Part shown: in pieces, positions 14,166-51,700 of the stretch
Position numbering within the stretch: the first letter of the stretch is position 1
How the letters are laid out: each line of letters begins with the position of its first letter
Position numbers and translations under genes: made by a program
Assembly: GCA_038503035.1 (NCBI GenBank)
Contig: JAVSML010000996.1
Location: 1 to 64,000 of the forward strand
Reading direction: 5' to 3'
Source: Crocodylus rhombifer
Lineage: Eukaryota > Chordata > Crocodylia > Crocodylidae
DNA length: 64,000 bases
Notes under the pieces: generated by a model
Seen by the model: the letters and a program-made list of their open reading frames with translations, nothing else
Told to the model about the DNA's origin: nothing
Database searches by the model: none

Positions 14166-28837
<14,672 letters not shown>

Positions 28838-28839
28838 GC

Positions 28840-29830
28840 TGCCCGCACCTGGACCGCCGGCGCCGCTGGAGGTCACGAGAGCCGCGCCATGGCCAATCGC
28901 GCACCCGGGAGGAGGGCCCCGCGCCGCACCCGGCCCAGGGCGCCGCCCGCCCGCCACGACGGCCCCGCCCCGCCCGTGCTCTGTTCCCGTATTAAAGCAG
29001 TTTGACAAACGCTGGCGGTGTCTGTGCTGGGGCGGGCGCAGCCGGAGCCTCTGGGCCGGCCCGGGATCCTGGGGCCCGCGGCTTCGGCTCGGCGCGTCGC
29101 TGCCCCGCGTGAGCCCGCGCCCGCGAGTGGCGGGCGGGGGTGCAGCGTTATCCGCCCGCCCGGGAGGGGCGCACCGGCACGGGCCCGCACGGGGCCCGGG
29201 CGGGCACGCAGCTCTGCGGCGGGGGGGAGGGCAGGGGTCCGGGAAAGGTCGCGGGGTCACAACCCGCGGGGGGGGGAACGGCGGCGGCGTCAACTCCGAG
29301 CCTGTAGCTCCGTCTCGCGCCGCCCTGCCCGTTCCGGATGTGACGTGCGGGGCGGAGCGGGCACCCGGAAGTGCCGCGAGCGGGGCTGGTGGGGGCAGCG
29401 CCCGAGCCGAGCCGAGCCGGTGCAGGTGCCGGTGTCGCAGGCGGGCCGGGCCGGGCCATGGCGCTGGCCGTGTTCTTCGGCTGCACCTTCATCGCCTTCG
29501 GGCCCGCGCTTGGCCTCTTCCTGCTCACGGTGGCGCGGGACCCGCTGCGCATCATCATCCTCATCGCGGGGTGAGCGCGGGGCGGAGCGGGCCGGGGCGG
29601 GGCAGGCGGCTTGGGCGCCTCGGCCGGGCGCTGCGGGGCCTCCGCAACGCTGATCCCGAGCCCGGTCCCGGCCCCGCGGCGCTGCTCGGCCACGAGCGGG
29701 CCCCGCGCGTCCCCAGGCGGCAGGGGGGCCGTGCCGGTGTGGGGTGCCCTGCGCCGCCGTAGGCCCGGGGCCAGCGCGCTGGCGGAGCCGGGCCCGGCTG
29801 CGGGTGGATCGTAGCCCAGACCCGCCGGCG
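28840..29830 (+). promoter_or_regulatory. CpG island promoter of the APH1-like gene
   Basis: CpG-dense block from the TPM2 3' UTR through APH1 exon 1 and into intron 1. There is a 'gagccgagccgagccgg' run just before the ATG (about 29,404-29,420) and no TATA box. Fits a housekeeping gamma-secretase gene. Confidence 0.65.
28991..28996 (+). terminator. TPM2: Poly(A) signal for TPM2 exon 9d transcripts
   Basis: ATTAAA, 154 nt after the exon 9d stop and only about 460 bp before the APH1 start codon. The TPM2 3' UTR is GC-rich and merges into the APH1 CpG island. Confidence 0.8.
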
Positions 29831-32800
29831 AGGCGGCCGGGTGCCTGTGCACGGAGTGACTGCCCGTCTCCCTCCCAGGGCCTTCTTCTGGCTGGTCTCG
29901 CTGCTCTTGTCGTCGCTGATCTGGTTCATTGCCGTGAAGTCCAGTGACCCCCGCGACGAGCCGCTGCAGAAGGGGCTCCTCATCTTCGGGGTGATGTTCT
30001 CTGTGCTGCTGCAGGAGGCCTTCCGCTTCCTGTACTACAAGCTCCTTAGGTAGGGACCCCGGCACCAGCCAGGCCCTTTGTCCTCGCCCTGATGCCTGCC
30101 CTGCCCTGCCCTGCCCCACCCCATGGCCCACCTGTATCCGTAGGTGCTCCTGCTTCTTGTCATCTGTGCCGCTTGCCAGTCCAAGGCAGGGGCCACCCTT
30201 GCTGTAGGTCCATGCAGGTCCCTTAGCGGGGGCCCCAGGAGGACTGGGAGCAGCAGCACATTGGAACAGCAGTGTCCCCGGGCTCACAGGTTTAGAGCTA
30301 AAGGGGACTGTTCAGCCATTCACCCAGGTAGCCCCTCACTGGCCCCAGGGAGCTGGGTTTGGCCAGTGCTGCCAGCCCCCGGAAGGTGCCCAGGCTGCAT
30401 TGGGAGGCTCCAGGGGATGGCAAGCCTTCCCAGGCAGGTTGCTCCTCGTGGCTAATAGCCTTCCTAGTTTCCAGCGTGGGTTTGCCCAGCTGCACTCTCC
30501 AGCCCTTGGTTCCTTCCCTGCCAGGTTAGTGAGTGCATTGACACCTGTTGTCCCACTTGCCCCTCCCCCCCTCCAGTCTTCTGTCTGAAAAGCCTAGAAC
30601 AAGTCTGCAAGTCCGTCTCGTGTTAGAAGCAACATTTTCATCAGTAAGGAACCAGCTGAGAAATCAGTGTGAAAATGCCCTGTGCGTCTGTAGGTCTGGG
30701 GCTGCCCACATGAGGCCATGATCCTGGCCATAGCCCCACACCCCCAGGCTCCTCTCTGAGTTCTCGAATGTCCCTGCTCTGCAGGTGACCTGCCTTGAGC
30801 CTGTGGCAAGTGTCCTTTGTGAGCACTGGCCCAGGGGCTCGAAGGTCTTGGCCCTTGGGTTCTGAGCCTGTGTAGAAGCTGCGTGTGAAGGACCTGAGCT
30901 CTGGGAGGTCTGGCCCCATGTCGGGCTTGGAGGAGTTGGGCAGCCTGCTCGGAATGGGCATGAAGAGCTCTTCTTGTGAGAGCAGGCTTGGGGCTGGAGG
31001 GTGTCTGCTTGGGGCTGGATGGGTGAGGCCAGAGTCTGGCCTGAGCCCTTTGTAGACAGGCTGAGGGGATGCAGGGGAGGGGCTGATTGGCCTCAGCCCT
31101 GGCCCCGCACAGTCTCACAAGCGCACAGTCTCACAAGCACAGGCCACAGCAGCTGAGTGGGCCCCTTCCCTGGGCTGGGTGGGACAGGCAGGACTATCCC
31201 TGCTGGCCTCAGGGCATGAGAGGAAGTTTCAGGCAGGTGTGGTGGAGGGGTGCATGATGCAGTAGAGCACAAAGGTGAGAAGGGCAGTGCGGGGCCATGC
31301 AGCCACGGTGCAGGAAGGACCAAGCTGCTAGAGGCCATCACCTGCCTAGATACACAGAGCAGTTGTGGTTGATGCCTGCGATGCTGCATGGCTGCAGCAT
31401 CCCTTGGCTCCAGGAATGGGTGTTGCTGTCCCTGCTGCATGGGGCCTGCTCCTGCTAGGGCAGATCAAACAGCACCTTTCTTGCTCATGAGGCTTTATTT
31501 CCCAGTGGGTCAGTGCAGCAGTAGGGTGCTGGTCAGGATCCCCAGCCTGGCTCCTTCCTGCTCTGCTCCATGTGACTGCCACACTGGTGCTGGCTGAGTT
31601 GGCAAAAGGTACGGTGTGCTGGGGCTCCCGGCAAGTCTGGAGTTGCATGCTCCAGACTTGTTCTCTGGAGGAGCAAAGCCAGCACAGTGCCAGCTCAGCT
31701 AGGCCTCCATGGCACTGAGAGATGAGCACCTGCATGATACAGCTCATGCTGCTTCCTGTCGTCCCTGCCTGGAGATGGGACTGGAGCGTGTCCCTTGCTT
31801 CCAGCTGCTGGTGGGACCTGTGCGTTAGGTACAGCCGGGACTTGGGCAGTTGAGCTAAGATGTGGCTGGACAGACCTTGGCCCCTCCCTGAATCTGGGGC
31901 TGCAGCAGTGCTGCTCCACTGCTTTCTTCCCCAGCCCTCCCGTCGCAGAGTCAGCTCGGAGCTGGAGTCAGCACACTTGGAGGGAGAGAGACCTCTTGGG
32001 CCAAAGCACTATGGTGGAAGCAGGTGTGCCACACTGGTCCTTGGGCAGGGAGCTCTGGAGGTGGCTGCACAAGGGACTGAGAGATCTTGTGGCCAAATCC
32101 TCAATGCAGGACAGTAGCAGTTAGGGCAGAATAGTTGACTGGGATGATGGAGAGGGGCTGGATGGCTGCTGTGGAGCATGCCCTGTCTTGCTGTGGAGCA
32201 TGTCCTTGCTCGAGGAGTTGGTGTCCCTGGAAACATCCCAGCTTCCCTGACTTCATAGATTTCGTAGACATTTGGGCTGGAAGGGACCCTGGAGGATCAC
32301 TGAGTCCAACCCCCTGCCCCAGGGGCAGGAAGTCAGCAGGGATCATAGGATCCCAGCAAGATAAGCATCCAAATGCATCTTGAAGGCATTCAAAGTGGGT
32401 GCTTGAACCACCTCCAGCAGCAGTTTGTTCCAGGCCTTGGGGGCTCAGACAGTGAAGAAGTTCTTTCTTATGTCCAGCCTAAATTGCACTGCAGCCGGCT
32501 TCTTCCCTCCTGCTGGTAGTTGGGCACCTGGATGGTCAGCAGATGTCAGTGGTGTGTGTGTGTACACATGTCGCACACCAGAGCCTGTCTGGCAGATAGA
32601 GCACTGGGTGGCATCTGAGCAGGAGGCAGCCTCTCATTTTGGTCTGCCCAAGCAGCTTAGGTCTGGCAAAGAGTGGTGAGCTGATGCCACGAGGGAAGGG
32701 GCCTTGCTGGCACCTGCTTCATCTTTACGTTTCCACCTCTGGTCTGGGCATTGAATATGTGAACCTGTGTTTTGCCTGAGGGCTGGCTGCCACCAGCACA

Positions 32801-33406
32801 ATCCCTCACAGGGACCTGTGTCTTTACACCTGGGGACAGGCTGCAGCCTCCTGGATGAGGCAGCTCTGTAGGTGTGATCCTGCTGTCCTGAGCATGCATC
32901 CCTGCAGGGGGGTGCCTGGATGCTGGCAGGCTGGGCTAGGCTTCCATTTAAAGACCCAGCCCTGCTCTCCCCCCAACTCCAGGCACCATTGTCACAGGGG
33001 TGTGCCTTCCTGGCACATCTCCCAGCTGAGTGCACTTTGCTCCATGCTCTGACAATTGGGCGTTGCCCATGGAGCCCAGGCCAGCTGCCAGCCCAGCCCT
33101 GTCAAAGGGCAAAGTCTGGGCACTGCCTATAGGGGGGCCTGGGAGTGACACCTCCTGCCAGGCAGAGGCTGCTTCCTAGGCTGCTGAGCCTTGGTGCTTG
33201 CAGGCCTGGGTGCTGCACAGACACGTTGCAAGAGGCCATCCCTGCCCACAGCTTGTGCAGGCTGAGGGAGTACTGAGGGGGGGGGCTATCTTCCTCTGGC
33301 TTACTCAGCTGGCCGGGGTGGAGCCAGAAGTGGAGCCCAGGTGTCCAGAGTACCCTTCTCTGCAGTGCCCTGGCTGGCAGTTTGTGACCATTGGGGGCAG
33401 AGGGAG

Positions 33407-33454
<48 letters not shown>

Positions 33455-36400
33455 TGCCCTGCTCTACCCAGTCCAAACCATCCAGGCAGAGAGGGAGGGT
33501 TCCTCTTCTCCTCTCCCTGCAGCACCTGGCTGGCAGTTTGTGATCATTTGGGGGGGGCAGGGTGTGCATGCAGCATCAAGCTCCTCCCCACCCAGGTGCT
33601 GGAGAGCCTGGGGCTGGCAAGACATGTTTCATAGTTTCTAGGGTCGGAAGGGACCTGAGCAGATCATCTAGTCCGACCCCCTGCCATGGCAGGAAAGAAT
33701 ACTGGGGTCACACAGCCAGCATCCCTTGGCCCTTAGAACTACAGCATCATGAGGGAGCTCATGCATGCCTGCCTGTCCCCTGTGGCTCCTCCATCCTCAC
33801 CAGTGTTGCTGCTCTCCAGGGCTCAGCCCTATGGCCATCCAGTCACCCTCACTCTGCCGCCCGCTCCCCGCCCCTCCCATCAGAGCTGCCTGGGGCAAAG
33901 GGTGGTTCCCGTCACTGGTGCCTGGGGACCCTCCAGCCAGGCCTCAGTGGCAGCATCGGACAGGACTGTGGTGAGCACCTGGGCAGAAGCTGTGGCCATC
34001 CTGCCTGTGCCAGTGCCAAGGGGCAGTCAGGAATAAGTGCCCCTTCTCACTGCAGTGTGGGGGCCTCATCTGGGCTGGGATCTGATGGGTGCTGTCTCCT
34101 CTGCCCAGGAAGGCAATCGAGGGGCTGGTGGCGCTCAGTGAAGACGGCTGCTCCCCCCTTTCCATCCAGCAGATGGCATATGGTGAGTCCCGCCCCCTGG
34201 TTGGGGCACAGGGTTAGGGTGTGGCGGGAGCCTGCGGTGCTGGAGGGGGAAGGGAAGGGGGGGCTTCTCCCCAGGAGTCCCTTCAGGATAAGGGTAGGTG
34301 TGTGCAGAAGCCCTCCGCACAGTCTGGGGGCAGGGGTAGTGGGGTGGCTGTGTGCAGGGATGGTCCCTGGGGCATGGCCCCTCCCTTGGGGTGCTGGGGC
34401 CTCTGGCATCTCCAGCTCAGCACCATGCATCTGCCCCTGCAGTGGCTGGCCTGGGCTTCGGACTCATGAGTGGTGCCTTCTCCATGATCAACCTCCTGGC
34501 GGATTCACTGGGGCCTGGCACCGTGGGTATCCATGGGGACTCGCAGCTCTACTTTTTGACCTCGGGTGAGAAGAAATGCCTGTTGCAGCTTCCCTTCTCC
34601 TCCTCCTCCCCCCCCCCCCCCCCCCCAGTGGCTCAATGGCCTGGTCTTGGGTAAGAGACTGCCCTGCCCCTTGTCTTGCCGCTTCTGCACCCCCACCCCA
34701 ACTGCACATCCCCTACCCCTTGAGAGCTCCATTTCATAGATTCACAGACACTAAGGCTAGAAGGGACCCCAGAAGATTGAGTCCAGCCCCCTGCCCCAAG
34801 GGCAGGAAGTCAGCAGGGATCATAGGATCCCAGCAAGATAAACATCCAAATGTCTCTTGAAGGCATTCAATGTAGGTACTTGAACCACCTCCGGCAGCAG
34901 TCTATTCCAAACCTTGGGAGCTCGGACAGTAAAGAAATTCTTCCTTATATTCAGCCTGAAATGGTCACAGAGGAGTTTGTGACCGTTCCATCTTGTCATC
35001 CCTTGTGTGGGGCCTCTGGTGAACAGACGTTTCCCCAGATCCTGATGAGCATCCCGATAAACTTATAGGTGGCCACCAGATCACCCCTGAGCCTGCGCTT
35101 TTCCTGGCTGAAGAGTCCCATTGCTCTCAGCCTGTCATCATAAGGTCTGTTTTCCTGACCTCTGATCATGCGCGTGGATCTCCTCTGCACCCTCTCAAGC
35201 TTCTCCACATCCTTTTTGAATTGTAGAGCCCAAAACTGGATGCAGTACTTCAGCTGTGGCCTCACCAAGGCAGAGTACGATGGGAGAATGACATCCCGGG
35301 ATTTGCTTGAGAAGCATCTGTGGATGCAAGCCAGCGTTTTGCTTGCTTTACTACCAGCTGCATCACATTGAAGGTTCATGTTCATCTTGTGGCCAATCAT
35401 AACCCCCAAGTCCCTTTTGTCTGTAGTGCTAACCAGTGTAGCACTGACGAGCCTATAAGGATGCTGCAGGTGTTTTCTTCCCAGGGTGGTGAACCTTGCA
35501 TTTCTTGGTGTTAAACACTGTCAGGTTCTCACCCACCCATTTCCTGAGCCTGTCAAGGTATGCCTGTACAGTGCCAGTAGCCACGTGACACGGAGTCAGT
35601 TGGGGTACATCTTCCTCCACCGGCTCCAAGGACTCCACTACAACTAGCAGCTCTTCTTCCTGTGGGCTTTGCCTTGCGTGGGGCTTGGGGGAGCTGCTGG
35701 TCTTTTACCGGGACCTCCTCAGGGGGCCTGTGGGGCTGATCTCTGCCTCCAGGTCCCCATTGCGGGTGGCCCAGGGTGCTGACCTACTCACCGAGCCGCT
35801 GCTGTGGAACCCCCAGCTCGTGGTCATGGCAATACCCTGGGCACATCAGAGGATGGCCCGGGTGGGTCTCACCGGGATTGGAGACCTCCCAGACTATGGC
35901 AAGTGGAAGTGGGTAGACTCTGCTGCACAGGCCCAGCACACGTGTCTGCCCACGGAGCGTGTGTCCCGCCTGCATCTAGCCCAGGAGGTGAAAGCTGCCT
36001 TTCCCATTGACGCCCTTGCCTTCCTAGAGCATGTCCTATGTGAGGGTGGTCTCTGCCCCCCCGTGTCCTCCAGCCCAATGGAGTTGCTGGTGGGTCCCAC
36101 ACTGTAGCAGGCCCTGCAGCACTCCCTGCTCTGACAGTGAAGCATCATCTCAGTAGGCTGGAGGACGTGAGCCCGGTTCGCTTCTCCTTGGCCCACCGTT
36201 GCCAGCTCTACACGTTTGTCCACCAAATACTTCACCACGCCACCCTTGCATCCTGCCTACACACCAAGTGGCGGGATGTCTTCAGCAGGGGCAAGGCCAA
36301 TGGACCCTGGTGGCTGAGTCTGTGCTCCACTTTGATCCCCCACACCACTGGGGACCTCGGCTGGCAGCTCCTTCATGGAGTTGTCACCATGGGTTTGTAT

Positions 36401-39400
36401 TTGACATGGTTTATGCCCGCCCCTCAAGCGTACCAGGTTGCAACCCCTGTACCACCTATGCATTTCTTCCCACACTTGTTTATTTTCTCACAGCCCATCT
36501 GTGGCCCCACCAAGTCCTGGGACCTCCTGGGCAACCTCCTCCTGGCCCTGGCCAAGCTGGCCATCTATCTTATCAGGAAGGAGGCTCTGGCCGGGGGTGT
36601 CCCTGAGGACTGTGGGGCCATATTCCTGGGCTTTCTCTATTCCCGTTTCTGAACAGCACCCCTAGGCAGTAGCTGCCCAGTGTCCCCCAAGGGAGAGTCG
36701 GTGGGCACTGTCTAGGCTGCTCTGCTCAGTGTCCCCCTATGGTTCACTTCTTATCAACCTTTGACCCACCTGCACATTCCATTTTTGTCATTTGTTGTCC
36801 CCCAAAATCACTTGTGGTCATTCTGCTCTTGCCGCCACTAAGAGATGGCTCTTGGTACAATAGTGGGCTTTAGGCCCACATAAAGAATGGTCCACATATA
36901 GGCTATTTGTCATTTTTTTTTGTCCCCTGCATTTAGTTGTTTGCCTTCCTCTCTAGCTGCCCCAACAGGTGGTGGCTCTTTGTAACTTGGTGGGTGTTGC
37001 CTATGGTCTGAAGGCATACAAATAGGCCTATTAAAATGCAGTGCCCAGAACTGCACACAGTATCCAGATGAGGCTGAACCAGTGCTGAGCAGAGAAGCAT
37101 TGTCACTTCCCGTGTTTTGTACCTAATGGTTCTGTTGATGCAGCCCAAAACCACTATTGCCTTGTTCAGCTGCATCACACTGCAGTTTCATATCAAGTCT
37201 GTGGTCTACCAAGATCCTTCTGAATTGCCCTCCTGCCCTCCATGTTCACACTCCTTCCCAGTTTTGCGTCACCTGCAGACTTGCTCCAGAAGCTTCCTAT
37301 GCCAGCATCCACGTTGTCAGTAAACGTTCTACACAGCACTGGGTCCAGATCAGGCCCCTGTGGGACTCCACTCAAAATCTCCTGCCACCCTGACATCGAT
37401 CTGTTAATAATTGCCCTTTACTTGCAGCTGTTGAGCCAGTTGTCTATCTGTCTTCTGAGTAGCTTTGACTAGCCCATGTTTCTTCAACTTGTTTATGAGA
37501 AGATCATGCAGGACCTCAATAACAGCCTGGCTGAAGTTCAGATGCACAATACCCACAGCAGGCCCTTCATCCACATCAGTATTTACTTTGTCAAAAAAGA
37601 AGGTTGGGTTTGTTTGCTCCAGTAACTTCCCAGGTATCAAGGGTGAGGCTAACCAGTCTAGTTCTCCAGGTCCTTCTTGCCTTTCTTCAAGAGGGGCACT
37701 ATGTCCATCCTTTCCCAGTCCTCTGGTATACGGCCCATCATCCACAACTTCATGAAGATAATTGCCAGATCCAAGATCTCTGCCAGTTCCTTCAGTACTC
37801 TGGAATGAGGCTTATCTGGCCCTGCTGATTTAAATTCGCTCAGACCCATCAAACCTTTCTGACTGTCTCTTCTGTTATCTCCTTCCTCAGCTTGCCCCTT
37901 CCTTACCTAGACAATCCCTTTTAGGTGTCTGGCTTCAGCTTCTTTTTTTGTGAAGACTGAGGCAAAGTAGCTGTTTAGCAGCTTCACCTCTGTAGTTTCA
38001 TCATTTCATAGATGTTAGGATTGGAAGAGACCTATTAGATCATCAAGTTTGACCCCCTGCCCTGGGCAGGAAAGTGTGCTGGGGTCAGGTGACCCCAGCC
38101 AGGTGTCTGTCCAATCTCCTTTTAAATACCTCCAAGGAAGGGGACAGCACCACCTCCCTTGGAGGCTATTCCATATTTTGGCAACCCTCACTGTAAGAAT
38201 TTTTTCCTGATGCCCAATCTGAATTTGCTCTTTTACAGTTTGTGGCCATTATTTCTAGTTACCCCAATGGGCACCTTGGTAAACATTGTAACTCCTGTTT
38301 CTCATCTTCCCCCCTGCCCCCCCCCCCCAAAGAGTTTGTAGGTGGCCATAAGATCACCTCTCAGCCTCCTCTTGTGTCCCAATTGTCCACATAGGGTTTT
38401 TTCTGTAGGCCTTTAACCAGATGAGTGACTGGGTTGAGAGAAAAGGTGGTGTCACTTTGTGTTGGACACAGATACTCTTGTTCCCTGGTTCAGGAGGAAG
38501 AAGATGGCAAAGCAGAATGCATCAGGGTGAAGATGAAAGGTGAAAGATGCAGCACCAATGTAATGGTGGGGATTTTTTGTAGGCCACCCAGATAGGTTCC
38601 CTGATGCAATGCAGCAAGGATCCCCATGCTTCCAGCCTTTCCATCTTTCCCACCAGGGCAGACGCCAGCTTACACCTGGTACAGCTGAAGTGGTCTTAGG
38701 CCTCCATGAGGAGCAGGACCATGGCACATCCTATTCAGGTCAGAGCTGCTGATCCTGCCTCTGTTTGGGCCTCCTGTGCTTCCAGAAAAGCCTCTTTGCA
38801 GCAGCCCCACTGAGCTGCTTTTCTCGCCCTGTTTGCTGCCCTCTCTTCACCCCCTTCCTCTGCTTGCCCACACTGCCTTCTGCCCGCGTCTCACACTAAC
38901 ATCCTGCTCACACACCAGTCCTTGCTGTCACCACCATGCTCCCCAGCTGTTTGCCCCCTCCCTCCACCACCCCCTCCGCCTGGCTCCCATGGCCTGCCCT
39001 GCAGCTCTTCCCAGGCTGTGTCTGCTCTCCCTGGCCCTGCCTTGCCTGGGGGCACTGGGTGATGGCTGCTTGTGCCCTACACTGACTCTCCTTCGTGCCC
39101 TACACCCTGCAGCCTTCATGACCATGGTGCTGATTTTCCTTCACACCTTCTGGGGGATCCTCTTCTTCCATGGCTGTGAGACCCGGCACTGGTGGGAGAT
39201 TGTGGCTGTCGTCCTCACGCACCTCCTTGTCTCGGGGCTGGTGAGTCCAGGAGCTGCTTGCGGGGGGCTGCTTCCCAGCCTGATGCACCCCTTGACTGGC
39301 CTGGCCAGGGGCAGGGACATGCCAAGGGGAAGTGGGTTGGACAGTTCTGTGCTAGGGATTCACCCAGGAGCTGAGGCATTTGGTGTGTAGGTGCCAGCCT

Positions 39401-40185
39401 AGCGCAGGAGACTCATTCTCCCCAGGAAACGAGGGGTTTCCCTGTGGCCCCAGGGCCCTATACAAGCACCAAGGGTCCTCTGTCACATCCAGACAGTGAA
39501 GCCAGAGGGCAAGATGCTGGTGCCTTGACCCTGCTCCAGGTGCTCTGGCAGGGTGTAGGGCCCAGCCTGGTGCTTGGGACAGCCTCCCAGGATGCCTGGG
39601 GACCCTGCTGCTGTGCCCCTGGCCCAGGGGTTTCCTGAGCACCTGCCCTCATTCCTCTCCTCTCCTCCTGCCCAGACCTTCTTCAACCCACTGTACGTGG
39701 GCAGCCTGGTCCCTGCCTACCTGCTGATGGTCGCCACAGCCGCCTGGGCCTACCTGCTGTCAGGAGGCTCCGCTCAGAACCTGCGTCGCTTCCTGCTGTG
39801 TGAGTGCAGCTGCCCCCAGCCCCGCTCTACCTGGCCTGATGGGGCCCTGCCCCAGAGGGGATGGGTTGCAGGGGTGCGGCATCATCCCGTTCCCAATGAC
39901 TGTCTCTATGTTGGTGGGGAGGGAGGGAGCAGGCACAGCCTGAACAGAGATGCAGGGCAGGCTAGTGGAAGCCTGCCCTGAGCTCTAGTGTAAGCAGTGG
40001 GTTGATCCTCGTCCCAAGCAGGGACTGCCCTTCTTGGTGTTCACTGCAGAGAGATGCTGCTCCCAGCCCTGGCAGGGGGTGAGGAGGGGGCTGGGTGGGA
40101 TGGGGTAGCCAAGTGAGCACTCACCAGCAGCCTCTGCCTCCTCACAGGCCTGCGGAGTGGGATGACCCCACAGATGGGATCCTGA
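29458..40185 (+). CDS. APH1-like: APH1 gamma-secretase subunit, third paralogue between TPM2 and CA9
   Basis: Scaffold subunit of gamma-secretase, the intramembrane protease that cuts Notch and APP. Exons: 29458-29570, 29879-30049, 34109-34182, 34443-34565, 39113-39240, 39676-39799, 40148-40185; all GT/AG with consistent phase; 256 residues (APH1B 257, APH1A short form 247). Starts MALAVFFGCTFIAFGPALGL. Seven hydrophobic segments lie at about 3-30, 32-56, 68-92, 115-138, 158-180, 186-205 and 212-232. Conserved assembly residues keep human numbering: G122, G126, G130 (GLGFGLMSG) and H171 (LHTFWG), H197 (THLLVSG). Exon 3 is APH1A-like (LSEDG-SP-SI-QMAY), while exons 4 and 5 are APH1B-like (DSLGPGTVGIHGDS, FMT, THLLVS). 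It is roughly equidistant from both, hence neither by eye. The last exon gives a short tail, SGMTPQMGS. No disabling change seen. Confidence 0.95.
32252..32525 (-). mobile_element. CR1 LINE 3' end in APH1 intron 2
   Basis: Plus strand 'cttcatagatttcgtagaca' then 'gggctggaagggacc' and 'ggcaggaagtcagcaggg' are the reverse complement of a CR1 3' tail and last coding part. About 270 bp remain. Confidence 0.88.
33345..33565. repeat. (TG)n inside a local tandem duplication
   Basis: A TG run occupies 33,408-33,453. On both sides a similar segment occurs, 'ccctggctggcagtttgtga' at about 33,367 and 'cacctggctggcagtttgtga' at about 33,522, each preceded by 'cttctc-tgcag' and followed by a G-rich stretch. 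The spacing is about 155 bp. Confidence 0.75.
33627..33737 (-). mobile_element. Short CR1 3' end
   Basis: Reverse complement of a CR1 tail: 'tttcatagtttctagggtcg', 'gaagggacctgagcagatca' and 'gaccccctgccatggcagg' on the plus strand. Same subfamily as the element at 45.4 kb by these words. Confidence 0.85.
34735..35570 (-). mobile_element. CR1 LINE 3' part in APH1 intron 4
   Basis: Starts with 'tttcatagattcacagacac' (plus). The minus frame 35,409-34,996 carries KASKTLACIHRCFSSKSRD, ALVRPQLKYCIQFWALQF and [19 protein letters not shown], and further up YLDRLRKWVGENLTVFNTKK. Frame-broken, 5' truncated near 35.57 kb. Confidence 0.9.
35640..36900 (+). mobile_element. Tx1/L1-like LINE, ORF2 C-terminal fragment
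   Basis: Plus-strand frames 35,685-36,107 and 36,137-36,652 join across one frameshift. They read EPLLWNPQLVVM, GLTGIGDLPDYGKWKWVD, LAQEVKAAFP, then TKWRDVF, GDLGWQLLHGVVTMGLYL and LLLALAKLAIYLIRKEALAG. The order 'plw-np-l ... Gi ... DL' then 'GDLsWrLLHGav-tG-yl' and 'LAKLAIY--RK' is typical of the C-terminal region of Tx1-type L1-like elements of fish, frogs and reptiles. About 250 bp of likely 3' UTR follow. Different from CR1 and rare in this window. Confidence 0.7.
36930..37985 (-). mobile_element. Older CR1/L3-like LINE fragment
   Basis: Minus strand: 37,178-36,933 reads KAIVVLGCINRTIRYKTREV; 37,745-37,404 and 37,852-37,658 give more RT parts (GIVHLNFSQAVIEVLHDLL, GPDKPHSRVLKELAE, DWERMDIVPLLKKG). 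More diverged than the other CR1 copies, so older. Confidence 0.75.
38003..38405 (-). mobile_element. CR1 LINE 3' end
   Basis: Plus 'tttcatagatgttaggattg' then 'gaagagacctattagatcat', reverse complement of a CR1 tail, with coding remnants to about 38.4 kb. It abuts or interrupts the older CR1 to its left. Confidence 0.85.
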
Positions 40186-40987: not shown

Positions 40988-40993
40988 AATAAA
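40988..40993 (+). terminator. Poly(A) signal of the APH1-like gene
   Basis: AATAAA about 800 nt after the APH1 stop codon, followed by a GT-rich stretch ('ccagtgtggtgtgtgcctgg' at about 41,019-41,038). No stronger signal lies between stop and here. Confidence 0.75.
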
Positions 40994-42498: not shown

Positions 42499-42513
42499 TT
42501 TATCTTTTTTATA
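42499..42513 (-). terminator. CA9: Likely poly(A) region of CA9
   Basis: Minus-strand TATAAA (42,513-42,508) and GATAAA (42,504-42,499) variants in an A/T-rich patch about 205-220 nt after the CA9 stop. No perfect AATAAA was found nearer. Confidence 0.5.
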
Positions 42514-45700: not shown

Positions 45701-48700
45701 GGGAACAGGGGCTCCCCCAATGCCTGCTGGTCCCCTCTGACTAGTTTGTAACAGGCCACTAGATTCCCCCTCAGCCTTCTCTTGTGAAGGCTGAACAGGT
45801 TCAGGTCCTGCAGTCTTTCAATGTAGGGTCTGCCCTGCTGCCCCCAATCATGCAAGTGGCCTCCTCTGGGCCCTCTCTATGCTGTCCACATCCGTCCTGA
45901 AGTGTGGCTGCCAGAACTGGACGCAGTACTCCAGCTGCGGCCTGACCAGTGCCGCACAGAGGGGGAGGATCACCTCCCTGGACCTGCTCGAGATGCATCT
46001 GTGGATGCACGACAAGGTACTGTTGGCCTTCCTAACCGCGTCCCCACACTGCCGGCCCATGTTCATCTTGGAGTCAATGATGACTCCCAGATCCTTTTCC
46101 ACCTCTGTACTGACAAGAAGGGAGTTCCCCAGCCTGTAGGTATAGTGCTGGCTCTTCCTCCCCAGGTGCAGCACCTTGCACTTGTCAGTGCTGAATCCCA
46201 TCCTAGTCTCATCCACCCACCACTGTGTGGGTGTCGACACCACAGCCCCCCAGTTTCTTAATGAGAATGGGGTGAGAGACAGTGTCGAAGGCCTCCAAAA
46301 GTCCAGGAAGATTACGTCCACTGCTACCCCTGCATGTAAGGATTTGGTGACCGGGTCGTAGAAGGCCACCAGGTTGGTCTAACAGGACCTGCCACTAATG
46401 AACCCGGGTTGGTTGCCCCTTAAGCATGATCTCCCCCCTGGCCCCTCGTGGACATGCGCCAGGATAATTTTCTCAAATTCTGGCTGCAGCGAGTGCTAGG
46501 GCATCTGGGGGGCAGGTGGCAGCAGGAGCCCAGAGGCTGGACCATGGCCCCTGCTGAGCTGGTGGTCCCATGCAGCCCCATATGCACTCCCAAGCTCATC
46601 TGAGCATGGGCGACCTGTGACCCATGCCACAGTCACCCCAGGCCCTGGCCTCACTGTGAGGGAGCTCTAGGTCACATGGCACGGCAGTGGCAAGGGCACT
46701 GTGCTCCCTGCAGCTGGAGGGTGGGTGGGGGGCACTACTCTACCCATCATGCTGCCAGCAGCACCCCAGCTGTGCTTCCCTCCCAGCCCGGGCACCAGTC
46801 CCTGAAGCTCCCAGCAGGTTGCATTTAGCCCTGAACTTCCTGCTGCTCCTGGCACCACACCCTGCCCCAGCCCATGATTCACAGGCCTAGCTCCATCTCT
46901 GGGGCTGACACCTCCATCCTGCCCTGCCTGTGCCAGGCTCCAGCCACATTCAAGCTGCCTGCTTCCACAGTAGGGGTCAGTCACCCGAGCCCAGCCCCTG
47001 CAGGCTGGGAGCAGGTGCAGCCCCTGGCTCTGCAGGCAAATATTTGTCCAGGTGGTAGCACCACTGGCACTGGAGCACTATCGGCATTGTACACTGGCCG
47101 TGTCAGGCACAGGTGCCGGGGCTGTGGGCATAGTACAAAGAACTCCGGGTCTTGGCCCGCTGCTGGGACCTGGCCCCATTGATGCAGTGACCTGGGAGCA
47201 AGACAAGGCGGCTGTGACTCAGGGGAGGTTAATAAAAGGAGCCCGCATGAGCTCTGCCATTCCCTGCAGGGCTGGGAGCATTCCCAGAAGGGATCAAGCA
47301 GGGGACTCCCCGGTGGGGCAGGGTTGAGGCTTGCAGCAATGCAAAGTGCCGTGGCATGACTCTAGACACAGGGTGCAGCAGGCAGGAGAGTGTGGGCATG
47401 AGCATCACCACTGAGGTGGAAGCAACTCTAGACTCCCCTTGCTCCAGGCTGGGGGAGCCAGCTCAGGCCCAGGGCTCTGGAAGGATGGGCAGGGGGGGCC
47501 CAGGCCAGGAGCAGGGAAGTCCAGCAGATTTGGCAATAGCGCAGCTCTGTGAGCTACTTGAGATGAGGGACAGTGCAACTGAGATGAGCAGTCAGCTGGT
47601 CTGGGAACAGGGGCAGAAAAAGGCTTATAGCAAGGGAACAGCAGTGAAACTGGGAGAAAAGGGCCTGGCTCAGGTTGGGCAGTCGGGTTGTCCTCTATTG
47701 ATACAAAAGGAGGAGAGCCACGCGCATGATCAGAGGTCAGGAAAACAGATCTTATGATGACAGGCTGAGAGCCATGGGACTCTTTAGCCTGGAAAAGCGC
47801 AGGCTCAGGGGTGATCTGATGGCCACCTATAAGTTTATCAGGGGTGACCACCAGGATCTGGGGGAACATCTGTTCACCAGAGCACCCCAAGGGATGACGA
47901 GGTCGAACGGTCACAAACTCCTGCAAGGCTGTTTCAGGCTGGACATAAGGAAGAATTTCTTTACTGTCCGAGCCCCCAAGGTCTGGAACAGTCTACCATT
48001 GGAGGTGGTTCAAGCACCTACATTGAACACCTTCAAGAGTAAATTGGATGCTTATCTTGCTGGGATCCTATGACCCCAGCTGACTTCCTGCCCTTTGGGC
48101 AGGGGGCTGGACTCGATGATCTCCCGAGGTCCCTTCCAGCCCTAATGTCTATGAAATCTATGAAAACCCGACACCTTTACGTCCCTTTTTTCTTCGAAGA
48201 GAAAAATAGAGGACATAAAAGGCTCCGGGTTTCGTATCAATAGAGGACAGAGTAGCAGAAAACCGAAATGTCCTCTATGATGGCCGCCCTAGCAGCTGCA
48301 CCCACCCAGGCTCCTTACCTGGCACAGAAGGCACCCCTGAGCCATGGGCCACCAAGAAGCTTGCCAGCACCCTCCGGCCATGCATGGCCTGGGGTAGCCG
48401 GAAGTTGTTCTCCAGGAGTTTGTCGTGGTCTCCATACAGCGTCTCCTCCAGCTTCAAGATCTGCGGGGAGACAGGTATGAGCAGGGCCCAGCTGCGGAAG
48501 CCCAGGGCCACAGGCAGGGCCAGGACTTCCCCAACCACCCCTGTGAGTCCCCACAGCAGAGTAGGTGCCCCCCCCCCCGGCCGACCTGGTCCAAAGACAG
48601 GCGCACAGTCTGGTTGAAGACAGTCCACGTCACAGTCTGGTAGCAGGGCGGGGTGGTCAGGGAGCCATCATACCGGAAGTAGTGGATGAGATTGGCAGGG

Positions 48701-51700
48701 AGCAGCCCAGCAATGTTGAACCCAGGCACAAGTGTATCCTCATCTGGAAGAGAGCAGCAGTCGGCAACCAGAGCCACAGCGCCTGCACCCGCCCACGTGC
48801 CATGTGGCTGGGGCTGCACCTCCCCACAGTCGGGGCCACCGCAGCATGATCTGGAACAGCAAGAGTCAGATCTATACCTGTAGCATTATCTAGAATGGCA
48901 CAATCTAGACCTACACCCACAGCATAATTGAGAACAGCATGATCCAAATTGTGCTGGGAAATCTCAATCAAGAACAGCTCGACTCAGATCCTGACCAAGA
49001 ACTAAGCATTGAGCACAGTTCAATCAGACATGTAGCATGATTTAGAACGGTGCAACCCAGGTCTGGATCCCCAGTGTGATCTAGAACATCACAGTCCCCC
49101 GCCTAGCGTATCTGAGCTAGGACATGCCCAGAGCCTGCCTGCCTTCGGCCCTGCTGCATCGGTGCCTCTAGCACCTCTGGGATTGCCTGGGCCCCTGGTC
49201 CTGGAGCTCAGGAGAGGGCACTGGAGCCAGAGCGGGTTTGGCACTCGGAGCCCCCCAAGGCAAGAGGTGCACACGGGTGCTGGCCCCGCAGCCTGAGTGC
49301 AGCTGGCCATGCAGAGCCTGTTGGCGCAGCCTCCCGCTGCCTGCCTGACATGTGCCATGTCCCCACACAGGTGCAACTCCCAGCCCGTGGGCATAGGGGC
49401 AGAAGGGGTGGTACCTTCCTTAGAGACCTCTTCCAGGTGCTCAAGCACATGCTCATAGGACGGGTTTTTCTCCGGCCCAACCTACAACACAGAGACCTAG
49501 GGTGAGCAGCATGGTTCAGGCCACCCAGAAGTCACCCTGCCCCTGGCAGAGCCTATCCATAGACAGCGAGGGGCCAGGGGACAGGAGGGGCCCCCCCCAG
49601 CACTACCCCCTACAACTGGTGACTGAGGCAGGTCCAGACTGGCACTGCCCCTGCCCCTACCCCTACCCTTCCTCACAAGACCTGCCTGTGCCTAGCCCAG
49701 CCCCAGTCCAGGATTGGGCCCCTAGGCCTCACCTGCAGAAGTGCGGCAAGCACGGCCAGGCCATCAGGTTGGGTCTTGGCTTCATCAAGGTCGTCGTACC
49801 GGGTGTTGTAATGCACCACATGGATCTGAAATCAAGGCAGAGGCCCTGAGCTCTGCCCGTGGGCAGGGGGAGGAGCAGCGGGGCAAGCTCTGCCACTGCT
49901 GGGCCCCCACAGCCACCGGGCCAAGCTCAGTGCCAGGCTCCCACCATGGCCTATGTACAGCATCTCCCCAGGGTCCCTCTGACTGCACCCGCCGCATGCT
50001 CCCCCCCCGCAGCCAGGACGAGGTGCAGCCCTTCCTCCCCTGCCCCGGGCACCACCGCCAGCACGAGGCAAGGGGCTGCACCAGGTCACGGGCTCGGGCT
50101 GAGCCACTGCAGGATCAAGCCACCCAGAACCAGACTGGGGAGTGCAGCATGTCTGTGTACAGGACAAACAGCCCCCAGCAGCGCTGTGGCCAGGCTGCCA
50201 AGCACACAGGAACAGGCACTGGGAGCCAGCCCAGCTGCCCTCCCTGGCCTGGAGACCCTCCAGTAGCACCCCCCACAAGTCACCCCAGAGTGCCAGGGAA
50301 CAGGAGCAGCCACCTGTCCACGAGCAGGGCCCTGCCTCCTCCGGCTCCTTGTGCTGTGCTGGTGCCCGGGCAGTCAGGCTGAGGGGCGAGGGCCTTGCCG
50401 CACTGTGGGCTCTCACCTCTGCATGAGCAGGAGGGGGTGGTGCCCCCTCAGCAGCAGGGCAGCAGTGACTGGGATACCAAACCCCCATGCCCCTGCAGGC
50501 GAGTGGCTGCCATGGGGGCTGGGGCAGTGCCTTACCTCGGCGTGGTAGCGCCGGCCGTCCACAGTGTGCTCAGAGCCAGGTCCGGTGGGGGAGCCCCAGT
50601 GCAGGTGCAGCTGCACAGCCCGGTACTGCTGGCCGTTGCTGCCAGACATGGTCAGGGTTGCAGGCAGACGCAGCATGACTGCAGGGAGTGAAGGGCCAGG
50701 TCAGCGGGACATGGCACCAGGAGAGATGCTTTGTGGGGCTGTGGTCTTTCTTGGGGGTGAGCCTGGAGGCCGATAGGATGGGGGAGGCAGATGGCTGCCA
50801 GAGCCTGCCATGATATACCAGGACAGCACACGTGTGGGGGCTGCGGACTAGTCGGCGCCCTGCAGCCACCAGCAAGGGCGCCCCGAGCAGGGGGAAGCGT
50901 GCCGGGGTGCGTGCCCAGCTTGCCCACAGCAATGCCGCCATCATGGGGAGCAGCAAAGCATGCTGGGAAAGCTCCCAGGTAATGGCACAGGGCTGAACGG
51001 TGAACAAAGGGGAGGGCAGGCGCCGCACGGGGCTCTTGTGACCGAGCCATGAGCAAGAGCAGCAACAGACGCAGCCACAGAGCTGCGGAGAGGGCGGCTG
51101 GGGCTGGCCTGCCTCCATGCTGCCCCCCCACCAAGCATCTGCGCCCAGCACCCGATCACCATGCAGCACGTACCCGTGTGTCCGTTGTTCTTCAGCTTCA
51201 GCTGCTCCGAGGCGGGCAGGTTGTAGCCAGACAGGCGGATGGGCTGCAGCTGGGGGCTGAAGAGTGCTGCCTCAGTGACGATGTTGATGGGCGACTGTTT
51301 CTGGCCACTACAGTGCGGGAAGCCCTGGCTCCACGCTGGCATGTCTGGGAAGGGGAGAGGGTGTGCAAGGCATGAACGCAGCAGGGGCCGAAGGGAGTGT
51401 TGGGGGCCAGGGCACCAATGGGGGGTGGGGGGTGAGCCTGCATGGGGCAGGGTGTCCAGGGGACACCCCGCAGACAGGATCCAGATGCCCTGGCCTGGAC
51501 TTTGCTGCCAAAGCTGGAGAGGGGACGCAATTTCTGGCTGGGGCTCAGTGGGGCCCACAGACCCCGTGCCCCATCTTCTGCTCACTGTCCCACCTCGGGC
51601 TCCAGCTCCAGCTCCTCAAGGTTGCTCAAGGCCTTGGCAGGAGCCGCCTAGGCTGGCAGCACCACGTGCAGCTGTCGCAGGGTCGGAGCGCAGCGCTCTG

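Follow-up and report, generated by a model that had tools for sequence, protein, structure and literature searches.

A probable third vertebrate APH1 ohnolog beside TPM2 and CA9 in Crocodylus rhombifer

Two APH1 types, A and B, are described in human, and mouse Aph1c is regarded as a rodent duplicate of Aph1b, in a section of PMC4073283 which also reports a division in mouse between Aph1a complexes, on which Notch depends, and Aph1b/c complexes, which act on neuregulin-1. Elsewhere APH1 is spoken of as one component (a passage of PMC2770060), and zebrafish aph1b is given as the orthologue of human APH1B (a passage of PMC4075077). A literature search by title and start of abstract, mostly outside subscription journals, found no report of a third vertebrate APH1 ohnolog. 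In the human genome APH1A presumably lies beside CA14 and TPM3 (1q21) and APH1B beside CA12 and TPM1 (15q22); to our knowledge there is no APH1 in the human CA9-TPM2 interval. Here we describe an APH1 gene from this interval in a crocodile. Database entries of its type are already known, under names such as Aph-1b or APH1A.

APH1 loci in the Crocodylus rhombifer genome

The window, a stretch of 64,000 nucleotides of Crocodylus rhombifer (contig JAVSML010000996.1), carries on its + strand an intact APH1 gene of seven exons (Table 1), which encodes 256 amino acids in a frame free of internal stops and has GT-AG boundaries at all six introns. The protein matches the Pfam Aph-1 profile (PF06105) over residues 3-239 with 309.8 bits (cut-off 25.6), covering positions 2-231 of 231 so that the first position alone is unmatched, and in a PDB search it recovers human APH-1A at 350 bits and APH-1B at 303 bits. 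Five positions which we take to be functionally important in APH1, namely the glycines of helix 4 at 122, 126 and 130 and the histidines at 171 and 197, are all present in it; across 35 vertebrate APH1 proteins G122, G126, G130 and H197 are invariant and H171 is nearly so. The candidate polyadenylation signal is the sole AATAAA or ATTAAA between the stop codon and position 42500.

TPM2 lies upstream on the same strand, its end (28837, placed by motif) being 620 bases from the APH1 gene, and its first two coding exons have the tropomyosin beta chain as their best PDB match (135 bits versus 116 for alpha-1). A run of 100 N at 25344-25443 falls inside TPM2 and adjoins a simple repeat. Downstream, on the opposite strand and tail-to-tail with APH1, the joined carbonic anhydrase exons score 169 bits to CA9 as against 139 to CA14 and 138 to CA12 in the PDB. 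Splicing, Pfam and the PDB matches of both neighbours are thus in agreement with the sequence-only reading, which had proposed an intact seven-exon APH1 between TPM2 and CA9.

Table 1. Features of the window and the APH1B relic on contig C7378
Feature	Position	Strand	Basis or remark
TPM2 (tropomyosin beta), first coding exon to non-muscle last coding exon	14886-28837	+	first two exons by PDB search, rest by motif only
TPM2, muscle last exon	~25630-25713	+	motif only
Third-type APH1 exon 1	29458-29570	+	start codon at 29458; Pfam match above cut-off in genome search
Third-type APH1 exon 2	29879-30049	+	Pfam match of 60.2 bits in genome search
Third-type APH1 exon 3, 74 nt	34109-34182	+	splicing; same length as exon 3 of C. 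rhombifer APH1A
Third-type APH1 exon 4	34443-34565	+	carries G122, G126, G130; Pfam match in genome search
Third-type APH1 exon 5	39113-39240	+	carries H171, H197; Pfam match in genome search
Third-type APH1 exon 6	39676-39799	+	splicing; turtle APH1B query of genome
Third-type APH1 exon 7, including stop codon	40148-40185	+	splicing
AATAAA, candidate polyadenylation signal of third-type APH1	40988-40993	+	motif scan
CA9 catalytic exons	51169-51336, 50530-50673, 49727-49828, 48583-48744	-	Pfam matches; best PDB match CA9
APH1B exon 3 relic, 70 bases	C7378:679032-679101	-, opposite to CA12	B-clade exon 3 model, E 7.9e-10

A Pfam search of the whole genome (2.2 Gb in 14,832 contigs; 26 candidates scored) yielded eight matches at E 0.001 or better, and these fall on only two contigs, that of the window and C5462. 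The gene on C5462 is APH1A, its exons matching Alligator APH1A at 84-98% in tblastn, and its tail-to-tail neighbour is a carbonic anhydrase with a diagnostic exon that scores 63 bits to CA14, versus 53 to CA12 and 50 to CA9. CA12 is found on C7378 (207 bits to CA12 versus 142 to CA14), with RAB8 exons beyond it on the other strand at 690-697 kb. RAB8A was the only RAB8 protein among the matches listed for these exons; from its position we take the gene to be RAB8B. Carbonic anhydrase exon matches are also numerous at about 1.15-1.47 Mb of C14641, on both strands and some with stops, as in a multi-copy array.

Between CA12 and RAB8, in the slot and orientation expected for APH1B, lies a relic of exon 3 (Table 1) which scores 36.2 bits with the B model, 11.4 with that of the third type and 4.9 with that of A. 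It keeps its acceptor and donor sites but falls four bases short of exon 3 in the third type and in APH1A (74 bases in each), so that its frame is broken. Chance is ruled out as its source: in two controls, 17 other stretches totalling 98,756 bases and the reversed CA12 stretch, the same 21 exon models reached E-values no better than 0.054 and 0.059, as against 7.9e-10 at the relic. No other APH1B exon was recovered from the 59 kb read at CA12, where the next B-exon match has E 0.086 and is on the wrong strand; the stretch from the relic to RAB8, the expected place of exons 1 and 2, is gap-free, and the side expected for exons 4-7 holds a 10-N gap at C7378:670616-670625. Among the 12 matches at E 10 or better to a turtle APH1B query of the whole genome, those with several exons are confined to the window locus and APH1A. 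Two further single matches were obtained, one on C8930 (E 0.447, with stops) and one on C6592. The latter is an isolated 138-bp duplicate of third-type exon 2, of which it covers the 3' part (C6592:604107-604244, minus strand, 90.6% identity); no further APH1 exon lies in the surrounding 10 kb. The Pfam and turtle APH1B searches, which give multi-exon matches at two loci only, speak against an APH1B hidden elsewhere in the genome. Since the APH1B slot holds a frame-broken exon and there is no further multi-exon match, the APH1 genes of the present assembly number two rather than three, and APH1B is a relic in it.

The sequence-only reading had proposed a search of the same genome for APH1A and APH1B at their own loci; the former is indeed beside CA14, and the 59 kb read at CA12 holds only the broken exon 3. 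Its prediction of an extra type of gamma-secretase complex in this lineage is not supported: the crocodile has two types as mammals do, A with the third type instead of A with B. It had also reckoned a lack of separate APH1B near TPM1/CA12 as evidence against a third ohnolog. A working gene is lacking there, but the ohnolog is not thereby refuted, because the relic shows that the site once held an APH1B and other vertebrates have all three types.

Three APH1 clades among jawed vertebrates

Protein searches with three queries, the window protein, platypus APH1B and Alligator APH1A, gave 279 different proteins when the best 120 of each were taken. Our main tree, which joins the window protein to 65 of these vertebrate proteins and is unrooted with no outgroup, separates into three groups (A, B and a third type), each supported at 100/99 and each containing cartilaginous fish, ray-finned fish, coelacanth and tetrapods. 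Members of the third clade include skate, elephant shark, gar, bichir, teleosts, coelacanth and salamanders, and within it the window protein is sister to Alligator P0003, 98% identical to it and bearing the database name 'Aph-1b isoform X2'. Latimeria contributes one protein to each clade and the caecilian Geotrypetes has members in all three, as do turtles, bichirs and cartilaginous fishes when close kin are pooled. B and the third type occur side by side, in separate clades, in Latimeria, Erpetoichthys, Callorhinchus, Geotrypetes, Scleropages, Chanos and Megalops; by profile class the turtle Caretta likewise has both (P0122 and P0025, respectively). Branching within the clades mostly follows the species tree, with departures in the B clade, where ray-finned rather than cartilaginous fishes branch first (97/77), and in the third clade, where among sauropsids the turtle groups with squamates (94/90). 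The same three groups were recovered by FastTree from the window protein and 224 of the 279 proteins, the other 55 having been left out by length, in a tree that supports A at 100 and the third type at 99, but B at only 21.

Of the three clades the third has evolved fastest, with a mean Latimeria-to-sauropsid path of 0.77 versus 0.51 in A and 0.40 in B. Long-branch effects are nevertheless an unlikely cause of it, because its members range from cartilaginous fish to crocodilians. Its diagnostic residues are K58, A59 (S in the window protein), R95, A121, M134 and S232. AU tests, limited to two alternatives named beforehand in the sequence-only reading, rejected the union of the third type with sauropsid A (p 8e-6) and with sauropsid B (p 5e-10) as one clade. 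The main tree, these tests and trees of the gene halves all place the window protein outside the APH1A and APH1B clades. The proposals that the gene is neither APH1A nor APH1B, that APH1 forms three clades and that this gene is not nested as a recent copy in either sauropsid group are therefore borne out, on an unrooted tree in which every clade has cartilaginous, ray-finned and lobe-finned fishes. As cartilaginous fish occur in each group, the three APH1 genes are, to judge from the tree, older than living jawed vertebrates, unless the root falls inside one group.

The B clade is also joined, by a long branch, by P0077, an APH1 protein of 258 aa derived from assembled reads; it groups at 97/92 with the 20 B rows, which stay together when it is removed. 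This protein, the sole one of the 279 within 15 bits of two class profiles, may belong to a lineage other than the jawed vertebrates sampled here and might be of use in rooting the family.

Profile classes divide the 279 listed proteins into 101 of A, 99 of B and 79 of the third type; since each search contributed its best 120, these lists are a good guide to presence but only a partial one to absence. Within these best-120 matches, the 73 named third-type proteins (six more are unnamed) include none from a mammal or frog; the 86 named B proteins (13 unnamed) none from a crocodilian, bird, squamate, frog or salamander; and the 96 named A proteins (five unnamed) none from a teleost, gar or bowfin. 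These distributions suggest lineage-specific sets, with B and the third type in teleosts and A and the third type in crocodilians, birds and squamates, and they suggest that turtles, caecilians, the coelacanth, bichirs and cartilaginous fishes have all three. That mammals have lost the third type appears probable from the same best-120 lists, whose lack of mammals among the named third-type proteins supports the earlier proposal of an ohnolog absent from them.

Origin of the third type

We consider it highly probable (about 0.9) that the third-type APH1 is a third vertebrate ohnolog, in age on a par with APH1A and APH1B, which emerged before living jawed vertebrates, with the early whole-genome duplications as its most likely source, and is likely to be a gamma-secretase scaffold, with crocodilians having kept A and the third type and mammals A and B. 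The same events would have given rise to CA9, CA12 and CA14 and to TPM1, TPM2 and TPM3; subsequently crocodilians would have lost B and mammals the third type. The age expected of such a 2R ohnolog is seen in the presence of skate, elephant shark, ray-finned and lobe-finned fish in the third clade. The expected block structure is seen in a single genome, which pairs APH1 with CA9, APH1A with CA14 and the relic with CA12; on the tropomyosin side it is represented by TPM2 only.

The rival explanation that retains most weight, although still an improbable one, is that this ancient paralogue came from a local or small-scale duplication before the jawed vertebrates rather than from whole-genome duplication. 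It draws on the fact that the genomes compared include no lamprey or invertebrate and that TPM1 and TPM3 are unplaced; against it, CA9, CA12 and CA14 each partner one APH1 locus, with the relic counted as such, always in the same tail-to-tail order, which is the pattern that block duplication predicts. A different source, gene conversion between APH1A and APH1B, might be thought of on account of the exon-by-exon mixture. At columns distinguishing A from B, exon 3 is A-like at four of six and B-like at none (the other two are neither), exons 4-5 are B-like at four of six and A-like at two, and the five columns of exons 1-2 are split into two A-like, two B-like and one other, which upholds the impression, gained earlier by eye, of an A-like exon 3, B-like exons 4-5 and mixed exons 1-2. 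Such a mixed look is what one would expect of an independent lineage that retained ancestral residues. Moreover, trees of the two gene halves both keep the three groups and place the window protein in the third clade separately, at 92/84 for exons 1-3 and 99/94 for exons 4-7; they rule out a conversion mosaic of the halves, and a mosaic origin in general is very unlikely.

There is even less to recommend two explanations which would derive the gene from a known type. The Alligator orthologue bears the name Aph-1b, as might a gene that was recently copied from APH1A or APH1B within sauropsids and had moved beside CA9. However, a clade reaching from cartilaginous and ray-finned fishes to coelacanth and salamanders, together with the rejection of both unions by the AU tests, rules out such a copy unless tests and clade membership were both misled by the model; we regard it as scarcely credible. 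Hardly better is the view that this gene is APH1B proper, moved here from the CA12 region, and that the third clade is merely APH1B evolving fast. The high rate of this clade would fit, as would the lack of crocodilians, birds and squamates among the 86 named B proteins of the best-120 lists. Yet seven species of the main tree, and Caretta, carry both B and the third type, and this coexistence within single species rules out the relocation; in the crocodile genome itself a B-like relic exon is still in place at CA12.

Likely function, naming and comparison with known APH1 proteins

The fold was examined on a model of P0003, the Alligator orthologue, as a stand-in for the window protein. It has a mean pLDDT of 86.1 and displays seven long helices and a C-terminal helix; its best PDB matches are 5a63_C (TM 0.86), 8oqz_C (0.83) and 8oqy_C (0.80), the first being the APH-1A chain of human gamma-secretase. 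Given this fold, the conserved residues and the intact frame, the simplest reading is that the third-type protein would be a working alternative APH1 subunit, its expression and assembly being presumed. Most likely it would serve as a seven-helix scaffold that binds presenilin and nicastrin in the same place as APH1A and APH1B, and would thereby make one of the animal's two APH1 kinds of gamma-secretase.

In view of the division between Aph1a and Aph1b/c in mouse, lineages with other APH1 sets must split the work differently. It is conceivable, and we offer this only tentatively, that three interchangeable but distinct subunits were present at the start of the jawed vertebrates and that the make-up of gamma-secretase has since come to differ, with A and B in mammals, A and the third type in crocodilians, birds and squamates, and B and the third type in teleosts. 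The third type might then do non-Notch work, such as neuregulin-1 processing, in birds and crocodiles as Aph1b does in mouse, and in teleosts either B or the third type might do the Notch work. Such reciprocal loss provides a natural experiment on which APH1 Notch needs and which can be swapped, from which one might also learn whether the third subunit alters neuregulin processing or the length of amyloid-beta.

Third-type proteins of birds, crocodilians, turtles, squamates and fishes are entered in databases under names such as Aph-1b, Aph-1b-like, APH1B secretase, APH1A secretase or APH-1A, and because they carry these names orthology by name is unreliable. The genes called APH1B in birds, crocodiles and mammals are not one and the same; many 'Aph-1b' genes of birds, lizards, crocodiles and fishes are not orthologous to human APH1B, so that a shared name is no sound basis for comparing function.

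Mouse Aph1c resembles the third type in being an APH1 gene besides APH1A and APH1B, but it (P0167) falls within the B clade of the main tree; since it is there, as a rodent duplicate of Aph1b, the third ohnolog should not bear the name APH1C. With APH1A the third type shares the Pfam family, the fold and the tail-to-tail arrangement with a carbonic anhydrase gene, and it is 62.5% identical to the Alligator protein, which is 265 aa long versus 256. It differs from APH1A in its separate clade, its own diagnostic residues and its locus, CA9/TPM2 rather than CA14. With APH1B it has in common the family, the fold, a similar length and a database name, with 58% identity to the turtle protein. Unlike the third type at CA9/TPM2, however, APH1B belongs to the CA12 locus, where this genome has only a relic exon, and it forms a separate clade whose members coexist with the third type in coelacanth, bichir and elephant shark.
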